Below the pieces are notes generated by a model. That model made no database searches. It was given only the letters and a program-made list of their open reading frames with translations, and was not told where the DNA came from. The position numbers and the translations under genes were made by a program. This document shows positions 12,673 to 25,009 of a stretch of DNA of 64,000 nucleotides, piece after piece. Each line of letters starts with the position of its first letter. Within the stretch, counting starts at the first letter, position 1. Origin of the DNA: Rhodococcus tibetensis (lineage in GTDB: Bacteria > Actinomycetota > Actinomycetes > Mycobacteriales > Mycobacteriaceae); assembly GCF_024438035.1 (NCBI RefSeq), contig NZ_JANFQF010000012.1, forward strand, positions 62,001 to 126,000. Direction: 5' to 3'.

Positions 12673-13929
12673 TCACACCGACACCACGTCCGCTGCCGCC
12701 ACCCGCACCTGGAACTCGAGGCAGCCCATCGCTTCGCGAGCGGCGACGAGCGCCTGCTCCGCCGTGTCTCCGAGAGCCCGTGCGTAGGCCAACCGCGAGT
12801 CCGACGACTCCAGGACGTCGACCCTGCTGCCCGGTCGGACCAGCAACTGCACCTCGGTCACACCGTCGACGTTCCGGGCGTCGTCGAGGCCGCCGACCTC
12901 CGTGAGCACTCCCGCAACCGGGGCGGCCGCGAACCAGATCGCGGAACAGCGAGCCGGCCGCTCCTCGGCGAGAACAGCCCGAATTCCCGGGAGAACCTTC
13001 TCCCCCACGGTCTGCCGCACGACACAAGCTCCGAGGTCGACGCCGGTGGCGTCGAAGGCCAGAGCAGGAATCTCGTCGCCTCCCATACGCACGTGGGTCT
13101 CGATCACCTTCGGACCCTGCGACCCGAGAACGATCTCGGTGTGCGTCGCCCCGAATTCGACTCCGAGGGCGTCGAGCAGCCGCTCCACATACGCATGCAC
13201 CTCTTCTTCCTCGGCCGCCGAGAGTTCGGCGGGTGCCATATGGCCGAGTTCGACAAAGGTGGCCGGGTCGGAGAACTTGCGGGTGATGGCGACCACCTGG
13301 TGTTCCCCGCTCTCCGAAAAGGCCTCCACGCTGAATTGCGGGCCCTCGTGAAATTGTTCTACCAGCACGCCGCTGTTCGTGAGGCCGTCGAAGCTGCCTC
13401 CCGCGCGCTCGAACGCCGCAGCGAGCGCGCTCTCCTCCCAAATCACGGCCACCCCGGCGCTGCCCGCGCCGCAGACCGGTTTCACCACGCAGGGAAGACC
13501 GTGTTGTGCCACGAAGGTGCGCAGCGCGTCCACGTCGACGACGACGGCGGAGGCCGTGGAGTCGATGCCCGAGTCTCGAAGCTGCGCGCGCATGGCGTTT
13601 TTGTCGTGGATCAACGCGACAGTGCGCCGCGAGTGGGTGGACAGGCCTAGCGCCTCGCCGATCGCGGCGCAGCGGTCCTGATCGCGTTCACCGAACGTCG
13701 CGATGCGGGTGAACGGATGCCGGGCGTGCGCCGCCGTGGCCATTGCTATCCATTCCTCGTCCGGGGCGTCGTGCCGCACGGCGATCACCCGGGCGTGCTC
13801 GGTCAGTTGCCGGAGCTTGGCAACGAATTCCAGCCGGCAGATGACGGAGGTCTGCGTGCCGGGCAGGGCGCTGCGGAGCTGTCCAGGAAGGTCGCGCCCG
13901 CTGCCGACGACAAGAACGTGTTCGGTCAT
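12673..13929 (-). CDS. ATP-grasp carboxylate-amine ligase (cluster 1)
   Basis: A 418-residue ATP-grasp enzyme. Visible elements are the pre-ATP-grasp Rossmann-like start (HVLVVGSGRDLPGQL), the ATP-binding lysine strand LPCVVKPVCGAGSAGVAVI, the adenine/hinge region VLVEQFHEGPQFSVEAFS and the metal-binding end PKVIETHVRMGGDEIPAL. Such ligases form an acyl phosphate with ATP and join it to an amine, as in bacilysin-type dipeptide formation. It is the last gene of an eleven-gene operon, starting four bases after the MFS exporter gene ends. It is one of two ATP-grasp enzymes there, so a tripeptide or a dipeptide plus another amide is plausible. Substrates unknown. Confidence 0.88.
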   Translation of the reverse strand: MTEHVLVVGSGRDLPGQLRSALPGTQTSVICRLEFVAKLRQLTEHARVIAVRHDAPDEEWIAMATAAHARHPFTRIATFGERDQDRCAAIGEALGLSTHSRRTVALIHDKNAMRAQLRDSGIDSTASAVVVDVDALRTFVAQHGLPCVVKPVCGAGSAGVAVIWEESALAAAFERAGGSFDGLTNSGVLVEQFHEGPQFSVEAFSESGEHQVVAITRKFSDPATFVELGHMAPAELSAAEEEEVHAYVERLLDALGVEFGATHTEIVLGSQGPKVIETHVRMGGDEIPALAFDATGVDLGACVVRQTVGEKVLPGIRAVLAEERPARCSAIWFAAAPVAGVLTEVGGLDDARNVDGVTEVQLLVRPGSRVDVLESSDSRLAYARALGDTAEQALVAAREAMGCLEFQVRVAAADVVSV

Positions 13930-13933
13930 GTCT

Positions 13934-23241: not shown

Positions 23242-24254
23242 GTGTTCGTCACCGCCAGACCCCAGTCGAAGTCGACTACGCCGAGGACACCCATGTCCGA
23301 CATCAGCGAGTAGAGGCCGCTGTAGTCGCGCACGAGCCGCGCCCCGGAACTCTCGGCGCGGACGTCGGCAACCATCTGTTCCCACCCGGTGACCTGCTCG
23401 ATCCGGAAGATCGCCGCCCAGGTGGAGTAGTCGGTGGCCACGAATGCCTCCAACCCGGCTACGAGCATGTCGAGGAAGAAGCGTCGCTTTACGGGGTCCA
23501 GCACGTCGTATACGAGCTTCGCCATCTCGTCGGAGATCGACGCATGGCAGTACTCGTCCCGGTTGTGCAGTTGTGCGGTAGTGGAATTAACCACCTGAAT
23601 GTCCCGATCGCCTGCGAGGAGATCCAGGTACGCGTTGATCGAGATTTCGGACACGGTGGCAAAGGCCAAGGTGGTGAGGCTGCGCTGCCACCGCTGCGCC
23701 GCCTGGTCCCGCAACCGACTGTGCATCTTCGACGTATGCGATTCGGGCAGGGCGCCGTCGGGGAACAGATGCCCCCGTTTGCGCCTCGTCAGCGCGCTCG
23801 CATTGATGTGCATCAGGGAGTGGTACTGCTCGTCGACCATGGCCTGGGCGAGCGCGATCTCCAGATCCGGACCGCCGAGTCCGGGGAACTCGCCGTCCAT
23901 CACCAGCGCGAACGCCGGGTTGGCGACGCGTTGCTCGGCGAGCACCGTATGCCGATTGTAGGCGATCCACGCCCAGCTCAGCAGCCGCGAGCGCAACCCT
24001 TCGGGCATGGCCTGCCAGGTGGGGTGGGCGTGGAACGGCACGAGTTTCTCGGGATAGTCCGCGCGCCCGGCGACGAACAGCTCGTCGAGGTCGGGCTCGT
24101 CGCGCTTCACCGTCGAGCGCCGGTGCCAGTTTCCCGCGAGACGACGGATAATGGCGTTCTCGGTCTCGTCGGCCGGGTCGAAAGCCGGCAGTCCCGGAAA
24201 GTGCACCAGCCCATCGGCATCCGAGCGCTGCAGTTGGAGGTCGTCGATGGTCAT
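23238..24254 (-). CDS. AurF-type diiron N-oxygenase (cluster 1)
   Basis: A 338-residue protein matching the AurF/p-aminobenzoate N-oxygenase family. All seven residues expected for the diiron site are present at matching spacing: E107, E142 and H145 (DEQYHSLMH), E203 ([10 protein letters not shown]), and H230, E234, H237 ([12 protein letters not shown]). AurF ligands, E101, E136, H139, E196, H223, E227 and H230, are offset by only six or seven residues. Such enzymes oxidise an amine to hydroxylamine, nitroso or nitro level with O2. In cluster 1 this points to an N-oxygenated amino acid. ATGA overlaps link it on both sides. The amine substrate is unknown and may be aliphatic. Confidence 0.9.
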
Positions 24255-25009
24255 GCACGGCTCCGGTCGCCGGCCCAGAAGCGAGTGAGGTGACGGGTGC
24301 GGTCGGCGTACTCCGACCGCGCGTGCAACATGCGCTGGTTGTCCCAGACGAGCAGCGCGTTCTCCGGAATAAGGACACGCGTGCGCAGCGTGTGGAACAG
24401 GTCGCTGACGCGGTGGGCCAGCCGGCGACCGGCCTGGCCGAGCGGCAGCACGGAGTCGTCGATGTCGGCGTCACGGTGCGGGTCGTAGTCGGCCGCGGTG
24501 AGCAGGTTGTAGCTGAAACGCAGAACAGTGCGCCCGCTGAGGTCCGAGCTCAGCATGGTGGTGCGCACGCCTCCATCCGGGCCCGGAAAGGTCAGTTCTG
24601 CGTCGGTCATCAGCGCGAGCTCGGCCGGTTCCAGGGCGTCGACCAATCGTCGTACGTCGAGGAGGTCGGTGTGGCCTCCCCCGCAACGTGCCTGGCGGTG
24701 ACAGAACAACGCGAGATAGGCGGGGCTCGGATCCCATCCGGGCGCCTCGGTGTGCGCCAGAATCGTGTTCGCGCTCTGCGAGTACGCCCGGTGATCGTTT
24801 CCCGGACGGTAGGTCACTTCGTGCGTGAGATGACCGTTGTACTGCGGTACCAACTCCCCAAGGGAGCGAACCACTTCCGTGGCGCCGACCCGATCGGGCA
24901 CATCGCGGACGACGACGTAACCGTCCTTGTCCAGCCGGCTCCCCTCGAGACGGTCTTCCAGCATTTCCGAGCACTCCGGCGCTGAAACGACGCGACAATA
25001 CGGCGACAT
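24251..25009 (-). CDS. TauD/clavaminate-synthase-like Fe(II)/2-oxoglutarate oxygenase (cluster 1)
   Basis: A 252-residue protein with the facial triad H86-x-E88 (LAHTEAPGW) and distal H229 ([13 protein letters not shown]), and candidate 2-oxoglutarate arginines in RTRHLTRFW. HxE, not HxD, is the usual variant in the clavaminate-synthase branch. It would hydroxylate, desaturate or cyclise an amino acid, with CO2 and succinate as co-products. GGAGGAAC lies directly before ATG 25009 and would be inside the coding sequence if the ATG at 25021 were used. It is the first gene of the eleven-gene cluster 1 operon, so the operon promoter must lie in 25010-25256. Confidence 0.85.

Follow-up and report, generated by a model that had tools for sequence, protein, structure and literature searches.

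A cluster of eleven minus-strand genes (g1–g11, Table 1) lies at positions 12673–25009 of a 64,000-nucleotide stretch of Rhodococcus tibetensis DNA (contig NZ_JANFQF010000012.1, positions 62001–126000; assembly GCF_024438035.1, 5.8 Mb); this whole stretch is called the window. The cluster is tentatively read as a biosynthetic operon for a small, ligase-made and exported peptide built around a modified glutamate, by way of 2-amino-3-N-oxygenated glutarate. What was observed directly is which genes and enzyme families are present, that the catalytic residues checked are intact, that the genes are conserved together and that they fall into modules. An earlier note on the window had proposed a peptide made without non-ribosomal peptide synthetases (NRPS) that combines a beta-amino acid with an N-oxygenated residue and with a dipeptide unit that has been epimerised; as a class of product this is well supported, and it is refined here by a KamA of probable IdnL4 type, an AurF of the CmlI branch, two modules, a product that may exceed a dipeptide, and a sub-route at C2.

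Proposed pathway

We infer the substrates, the order of the steps and the product as follows. The KamA-type aminomutase g3 would shift the amino group of L-glutamate to C3, giving beta-glutamate; the C3 amine would be oxidised to a hydroxylamine or nitro group by the CmlI-like diiron enzyme g2; C2 would be hydroxylated by the TauD-family oxygenase g1, the C2 alcohol oxidised to the ketone by the Ldh2-type dehydrogenase g5 (with a flavin mononucleotide (FMN) hydroxy-acid oxidase in addition in the Streptomycetaceae version), and an amino group installed at C2 by the IlvE-like transaminase g8. The building block would be 2-amino-3-N-oxygenated glutarate, i.e., beta-N-oxygenated glutamate, the hydroxylamine form of which could close to an isoxazolidinone. 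Residues would be added to it by two ATP-grasp ligases (g6, g11) and the FemAB-like transferase g7; the dipeptide epimerase part of g4 would set a D-centre, its GNAT domain would N-acetylate (protection or self-resistance), and the major facilitator superfamily (MFS) protein g10 would export the product. A more specific version, in which amino relocation yields 3-nitro- or 3-(hydroxyamino)-glutamate (or the isoxazolidinone) as warhead of a ligase-made, D-configured peptide, and in which the cluster is one output of a wider beta-glutamate pathway family reaching down to a KamA–FemAB–MFS operon of Nocardia, is put forward as a rather doubtful one.

Layout and conservation of the cluster

The region holds eleven open reading frames (ORFs) with no internal stops. 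Their ten junctions are seven ATGA overlaps, two GTGA overlaps and one 4-base gap, the layout that the earlier note had described; elsewhere in the window a 4-base overlap was found at 1/25 same-strand junctions (own ORF caller). The overlaps and the conserved gene order suggest transcription of g1–g11 as one unit. A sigma-70-type scan gave 1 site (0.8 expected), and neither promoter nor terminator signals exceeded chance in the scans made for them. The GC content of the core is 0.68–0.70 (0.65–0.66 in neighbouring windows).

Searches with the KamA of the window matched 11 of 301 family genomes and 29 of 348 order genomes, its own genome included in both counts. All eleven genes were found in order, at 64–96% identity, in six other Rhodococcus genomes (L015–L020), and the cluster is present in 7/28 genomes of the genus, that of the window included. 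A KamA scan of named genomes gave 44 loci, every one of which was examined. Relatives of all eleven genes stood in order at 13 (L075–L081, L088, L089, L114–L117; L075, L076, L077 and L079 are taken as the same contigs as L020, L016, L018 and L019), with g8 and g9 as a single ORF in L078, L080 and L081; a reduced set was present at three more, namely L099 (S. xanthochromogenes; without g9 and g10) and both Kutzneria loci (L082, L083; no g9, and a g4 that lacks its GNAT domain); the fragment L109 (3.4 kb) bears g1–g3; the remaining 27, some of them short contigs, have KamA with no AurF beside it. TauD, AurF and KamA occurred together in 4/392 genomes of a further genus (presumably Streptomyces), and the two of these that were read out both carry the cluster (L151, without g9 and g10; L152). 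Hosts are several Rhodococcus, mycobacteria, Kutzneria and Streptomyces, with strains of R. opacus, R. jostii, R. koreensis and S. ficellus among those named.

Catalytic residues were checked in 18 copies (window and 17 loci), and every residue checked in TauD, AurF, KamA, epimerase and IlvE was invariant in 18/18; the roles given to most of these motifs are our assumptions. Lack of co-conservation had been named beforehand as the finding that would speak against the proposal; the cluster proved to be kept in order across genomes and is a real conserved unit. As to the earlier remark that no described pathway is known with this gene set, no description of such a cluster turned up in the open-access literature, judged mostly from titles and abstract openings; parts of the cluster are known, and the whole is not matched to a described pathway.

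Aminomutase g3

Assignment of g3 to KamA is based on NCBIfam KamA-family models (all below their cut-offs), a structural match and motifs. Pfam Radical_SAM was likewise below its cut-off (16.9 vs 29.5 bits), and TIGR04368, which we take to be the clostridial-type glutamate 2,3-aminomutase, gave 77.7 bits (equivalog cut-off 650). The sole match in the Protein Data Bank (PDB) was lysine 2,3-aminomutase 2a5h (E 1.4e-17); counted along the alignment, R332 of g3 stands opposite D293 of 2a5h, which presumably binds the lysine side chain, and the D330 region of that enzyme lies outside the aligned part. R332 and K376 are invariant in 15/15 diverse members of the subfamily; C151, C155, C158, R160 and K376 are kept in 18/18 cluster copies and 15/15 diverse members, and are taken as the CxxxCxxC motif, the carboxylate-binding arginine (R160) and the pyridoxal phosphate (PLP) lysine (K376). 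The RDTG and PLP-lysine motifs are common across the subfamily in a wider alignment, the exceptions being L102 (without the PLP lysine) and L074 (partial match, without the cysteine stretch). A reading of g3 as lysine 2,3-aminomutase was dropped, D293 being replaced and TIGR03820 far below cut-off.

The substrate was approached from genomic context. In five order-level relatives (L058–L061 and L063) a KamA of the same subfamily stands beside an Aminotran_1_2 PLP enzyme, a VinK-like acyltransferase, two adenylation (A)-domain proteins, an acyl carrier protein (ACP), an aminopeptidase-like protein and a polyketide synthase (PKS); these names are sequence readings, of which Aminotran_1_2 was Pfam-checked (on member L071), and the KamA of L058 was not called by the ORF caller. 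PMC11284099 describes a VinN/VinM/VinL/VinK-type set for macrolactams and assigns glutamate 2,3-aminomutase activity, as probable, to IdnL4 and decarboxylation of beta-glutamate to IdnL3; the same names are used in PMC10662134, and in both 3-aminobutyrate starters are made from glutamate via beta-glutamate by IdnL4/IdnL3. Since the subfamily occurs in macrolactam-like clusters matching this set, beta-glutamate is the likely product of g3, which is probably an IdnL4-type glutamate 2,3-aminomutase (by genomic context rather than by alignment with IdnL4), and beta-glutamate is probably the beta-amino acid of the pathway. The incednine/lobosamide-type starter pathway shares with the cluster this KamA subfamily, seen with that gene set, and beta-glutamate as proposed first product; there, however, beta-glutamate is decarboxylated and loaded on a PKS, whereas the eleven genes hold no Aminotran_1_2 partner, A domain, ACP or PKS, and the skeleton is thought to be N-oxidised and ligated.

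N-oxygenase g2

g2 matched 5hyg, which we take to be CmlI, with 61% identity over 305 residues (E 7e-126). All seven residues of the diiron site (E107, E142, H145, E203, H230, E234 and H237, the extra histidine included) were invariant in 18/18 copies; the list of seven was taken from PMC13061610, which cites a CmlI structure paper. On a quick AurF tree CmlI falls among the enzymes of KamA clusters with modest support, and by these sequence comparisons g2 belongs to the CmlI branch of the AurF family. It resembles CmlI (chloramphenicol) and AurF in sequence and metal site, and differs in having no arylamine genes nearby and in adjoining KamA and TauD; its substrate we infer to be an aliphatic amine.

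Two further AurF settings were recorded. In the same genome (L157, contig C10, 29000–48900) a second AurF (45%) belongs to an arylamine-type cluster: beside it are genes for ADC (aminodeoxychorismate) synthase and prephenate dehydrogenase, and an ORF of 2697 aa that was read as NRPS. At L147–L150 an AurF of the CmlI branch lies near two ATP-grasp ligases, an MFS-like gene, PALP/OCD, a thiamine diphosphate enzyme, a ketosynthase and a putative NRPS of large size (Pfam on seven genes of L149); the PALP/OCD set presumably makes 2,3-diaminopropionate, again a beta-amine.

The proposed C2 sub-route (g1, g5, g8) and g9

H86, E88, H229 and R243 of g1 (HxE...H...R) and the PLP lysine of g8 are invariant in 18/18 copies; the PDB matches of g1 were weak (TmpA 6npb, L-lysine 3-hydroxylase 6f2a). 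Partner genes were scored at 65 loci put through the ORF caller, KamA being called in 62 (missed in L058, L110 and L118); families were BLAST clusters, counted anywhere in a ~20-kb locus. A hydroxy-acid oxidoreductase (Ldh_2 or FMN_dh) was present at 21/62, and at all 21 together with TauD and an aminotransferase: 17 hold the canonical cluster, and four (L091, L092, L093, L095) combine FMN_dh with a TauD of a different subfamily and with class III aminotransferase genes (Pfam checked on L091). At the 11 loci with an Aminotran_1_2 PLP partner the oxidoreductase was found at 0/11 and TauD at 1/11 (L070). The other loci had FemAB and ATP-grasp without TauD, oxidoreductase or Aminotran_1_2 partners (7/62), FemAB only (2/62), ATP-grasp without FemAB (2/62; L062, and L084 with an aminotransferase) or no scored partner (19/62; L056 and L085, both in this class, are probably one contig counted twice). 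An FMN_dh-family gene directly follows g11 in 7/7 Streptomycetaceae clusters and 0/10 others (Pfam checked on L099; most copies run off the fetched stretch). Because the oxidoreductase occurs with TauD and an aminotransferase, the oxygenase, the hydroxy-acid dehydrogenase (Ldh2 or FMN_dh) and the transaminase seem to form a single sub-route that acts on the beta-glutamate skeleton and would hydroxylate, oxidise and re-aminate C2.

The four FMN_dh/class III loci belong to S. filipinensis, S. alfalfae, Gordonia soli and Saccharothrix algeriensis; that of S. filipinensis has an amino-acid-kinase/ACT gene and a weak ATP-grasp gene nearby.

No Pfam or NCBIfam match was obtained for g9, and its best PDB hit was not significant (E 0.18); 46 columns are invariant in 15 sequences. 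As g8 and g9 are fused in three mycobacterial loci (543–551 aa; L078, L080, L081), g9 probably works with the aminotransferase.

Ligases, transferase and epimerase

By domain (LAL_C2, 65 bits) and PDB matches (L-amino acid ligases 30vh and 3vot) g11 is classed as an L-amino acid ligase; no LAL_C2 domain was found in g6 by the Pfam scan. For g7 no clear PDB relative was obtained (best profile match a mitoribosomal protein, E 0.008), and the match to an aminoacyl-tRNA-dependent synthase (E 0.36) is too weak to count as evidence for use of aminoacyl-tRNA. Since relatives of g7 stand in operons with KamA and MFS in Nocardia, g7 may acylate beta-glutamate or its derivative directly. With two ATP-grasp enzymes and one FemAB-like enzyme there are likely three amide formers, so that the product may exceed a dipeptide.

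The Nocardia operons are minimal, FemAB–MFS–KamA (L104, L106) and FemAB–MFS–ATP-grasp–KamA (L100, L101, L103), and are perhaps the simplest beta-glutamate peptide pathways.

In the epimerase part of g4 the KxK motif, the D/E/D metal site, the second lysine and DxD are each kept in 18/18 copies; the lysine pair and the metal site are taken as catalytic, and DxD as binding the dipeptide ammonium group. The nearest PDB entries are 3iji, 3ijl and 3ijq, presumably of the L-Ala-D/L-Glu epimerase type; g4 shares lysine pair, metal ligands and DxD with such enzymes, and differs from them in its fusion to GNAT and its place in a biosynthetic operon. The GNAT domain is nearest to glyphosate N-acetyltransferase 2bsw (E 5e-29). 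The Kutzneria copies of g4 (353–354 aa) lack it, and its likeness to a stand-alone Kutzneria GNAT is not convincing (30–32% identity, E 0.008–0.035).

Two modules with different histories

Identity to the window changes after g3. For Kutzneria it is 62, 72 and 70% in g1–g3 (module A) and 36–53% in g4–g11 (module B); for Streptantibioticus, 48, 62 and 56% in g1–g3, 67–82% in g4–g8, g10 and g11, and 58% in g9. Quick trees of g1–g3 conflict with those of g5, g6, g7, g8 and g11: the grouping Rhodococcus + Myco + Kutzneria is rejected on the latter (p value of the approximately unbiased test, p-AU, 1.4e-7) and Rhodococcus + Myco + Streptantibioticus/xanthochromogenes on the former (p-AU 9e-45), the groups having been picked after the identities were known and the p-AU values being descriptive. 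From this conflict TauD–AurF–KamA seems to travel as a unit, which fits one sub-pathway.

Points against the proposed pathway

Several findings weigh against the pathway as drawn. CmlI itself is an arylamine oxygenase. For g3 the lysine-type models score higher (TIGR03822 103.9 and TIGR03820 100.7 bits) than TIGR04368, all far below cut-off; its substrate is assigned from context, and IdnL4 is backed by gene disruption, its activity not having been seen in vitro (PMC11284099). FDO relatives can oxidise hydrazones according to PMC13061610. The C2 sub-route meets further objections: TauD, oxidoreductase and transaminase are not found as a set at 41/62 KamA loci; the 17 canonical loci are copies related to one another; at L070 TauD occurs without the oxidoreductase/transaminase pair; the Streptomycetaceae clusters carry FMN_dh in addition to Ldh2, although the route has no need of both; and modules A and B differ in history, so that the carbon on which Ldh2 and IlvE act may not be the one attacked by TauD. 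Since g8 exceeds the cut-off of PRK06606, a model for branched-chain transaminases, it could be needed for another residue. Among NCBIfam models g4 scores best with DgcA, an N-acetyl-D-Glu racemase (below cut-off); a GNAT-acetylated amino acid, and not a dipeptide, could therefore be the substrate of the epimerase.

Alternative explanations

A first alternative is somewhat improbable: beta-glutamate would be made and N-oxidised, but Ldh2, IlvE and perhaps TauD would supply a second residue, either a hydroxy amino acid or one of branched-chain-like type, which the ligases join to it; IlvE may also be a drug-resistant copy of the target. The PRK06606 score of g8 favours it, as do the conflicting trees, by which Ldh2 and IlvE go evolutionarily with the ligases and not with KamA, AurF and TauD. 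Against it, TauD, a hydroxy-acid oxidoreductase and an aminotransferase recur with KamA in the second assembly, there with the other TauD subfamily and aminotransferase class; and g8 is not a recent copy of the other IlvE-type genes of the genome, since the three further matches there reach only 27–36% identity over the match.

An azoxy or hydrazine (N–N) product is improbable. It would require a VlmB-like diiron enzyme and a FemAB-like protein that transfers an aminoacyl group to a hydroxylamine as VlmA does, an analogy for g7 that is our assumption. A different type of cluster (L023, L024, L108, partly L118) does hold relatives of KamA and FemAB, together with genes for a cupin, a Lys/Orn monooxygenase and a methionyl-tRNA synthetase (MetRS)-like protein, a set that we take to be N–N-forming, and PMC13061610 compares AurF-type diiron enzymes, one of which oxidises a hydrazone, with VlmB. 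The Pfam families of the eleven genes, however, include no flavin N-hydroxylase, tRNA synthetase or cupin (a KinJ-like protein would escape these libraries), and Nocardia L104 and L106 pair FemAB with KamA with no AurF.

The KamA clusters of L023, L024, L108 and L118 (Rhodococcus-genus genomes, Virgisporangium, Kitasatospora) also hold luciferase-like and ATP-grasp genes, and relatives of g10 and g11 beside an A domain and a carrier protein; not all genes were called at each locus.

It is very unlikely that AurF makes an aromatic nitro group, as in chloramphenicol, with the aromatic amine coming from outside the cluster. 5hyg, to which g2 is 61% identical, has a fully identical counterpart (100%) in L136, which lies in L146 with ADC-synthase-, chorismate-mutase-, prephenate-dehydrogenase- and NRPS-like genes, a set read as that of chloramphenicol; these sequences fall among the KamA-cluster ones on the AurF tree. 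Homologues of ADC synthase or prephenate dehydrogenase were nevertheless found at 0/24 KamA–AurF loci (20 distinct contigs, four being counted twice) and nowhere in the window, as against 6/6 AurF comparison loci selected as arylamine-type, two of which supplied the queries; they were found at 0/5 other AurF loci (L147–L150 and L158), the first four forming a second AurF branch in PALP/OCD/ATP-grasp context. The arylamine route was not supported, for want of these homologues at the cluster loci.

That the operon is catabolic or housekeeping, as sets of amino-acid enzymes with an MFS protein can be, is scarcely credible in view of its patchy distribution (7/28 genomes of the genus), flanks that change between loci, the presence of two ATP-grasp genes, one of them for an L-amino acid ligase, and the biosynthetic genes that lie near relatives of KamA.

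Comparison with other known systems

The earlier note had pointed to bacilysin and related pathways. With ATP-grasp dipeptide antibiotics of the bacilysin type (BacD, Lal) the cluster shares an L-amino acid ligase, a transaminase and an MFS exporter; it adds radical SAM, diiron, epimerase–GNAT, second-ligase and FemAB genes, and bacilysin is only a mechanistic cousin. No anticapsin-type genes (BacA/BacB type) were present among the Pfam families of the eleven genes, judged by family and not against Bac sequences. The valanimycin-type azoxy pathway is marked by VlmH, VlmL and VlmO homologues; no flavin oxygenase or tRNA synthetase family was found among the Pfam families of the eleven genes, VlmO and VlmA not having been compared by sequence. 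With the negamycin cluster, beta-amino acid chemistry and ATP-grasp are shared. A negamycin-like reading (beta-amino acid, N–N bond) was dropped, negamycin involving a KinJ-type heme enzyme and beta-lysine (PMC12154649); no KinJ/NegJ heme enzyme was recognised by Pfam or NCBIfam in the eleven genes, judged by library profiles only, g9 being without a family. PMC12154649, PMC13061610 and PMC13338154 served as comparison points only.

Gene table, flanks and a second cluster

Coordinates and junctions were confirmed by ORF analysis, and the Pfam domains agree with the enzyme families named earlier (no Pfam match for g9).

Table 1. Genes of the cluster, with window coordinates, assigned or proposed function, and support.
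Gene	Position	Strand	Assignment	Support
g1	24251–25009	-	Fe(II)/2-oxoglutarate oxygenase, TauD family, HxE motif; proposed C2 hydroxylase of beta-glutamate skeleton	Pfam TauD 59.5 bits
g2	23238–24254	-	AurF/CmlI-type diiron N-oxygenase; proposed 3-amino oxidation	Pfam AurF 193 bits
g3	21922–23241	-	KamA-type radical S-adenosylmethionine (SAM)/PLP aminomutase, probably IdnL4-like; proposed glutamate 2,3-aminomutase	motifs, 2a5h match, genomic context
g4	20441–21925	-	dipeptide epimerase (enolase superfamily, residues ~1–340) fused to GNAT (~348–491)	Pfam MR_MLE_N/C + Acetyltransf
g5	19389–20444	-	Ldh2-type hydroxy-acid dehydrogenase; proposed C2-OH to C2=O	Pfam Ldh_2 327 bits
g6	18166–19392	-	ATP-grasp ligase 1	Pfam ATP-grasp_4 27.6 bits (cut-off 27); NCBIfam PRK02186 E 2.7e-21, below cut-off
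g7	16901–18169	-	FemAB-like GNAT-fold acyl/aminoacyl transferase; proposed amide former	Pfam FemAB_like 69 bits
g8	15984–16904	-	IlvE-like class IV aminotransferase; proposed C2 re-amination	Pfam Aminotran_4; NCBIfam PRK06606 408.6 bits (cut-off 279)
g9	15235–15987	-	conserved protein without recognised family; probably partner of g8	present in 15/18 analysed cluster copies
g10	13934–15238	-	MFS exporter (putative export direction)	Pfam MFS_1 98 bits
g11	12673–13929	-	ATP-grasp L-amino acid ligase (ligase 2)	Pfam ATP-grasp_4 + LAL_C2; PDB ligases

Apart from a short-chain-dehydrogenase family that turns up elsewhere in L080, L081 and L089, the window genes adjacent to the cluster are found next to it again in the near sister L015 and in no other locus; since the flank genes do not travel with the cluster beyond L015, its boundaries are set at those of Table 1. 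A search for an empty site at the downstream flank yielded none: the sulfatase locus in six same-genus genomes has no other gene of window 6–31.5 kb.

A second candidate small-molecule cluster lies at window 36166–48802, where GC dips to ~0.59; its genes encode a flavin monooxygenase, a class IV aminotransferase, a long ABC transporter protein, a cupin, an ATP-grasp ligase, a tryptophan-dioxygenase-like protein and an O-methyltransferase.

Significance

If true, the proposed pathway would link a radical SAM aminomutase to peptide assembly without NRPS and to CmlI-like N-oxidation of an aliphatic amine. As the cluster is present in named strains, its product can be sought directly. CmlI-like enzymes beside KamA bear on the origin of the nitro-forming enzyme of chloramphenicol, and the KamA subfamily marks what looks like a beta-glutamate pathway family, in which at least five kinds of partner sets were seen.

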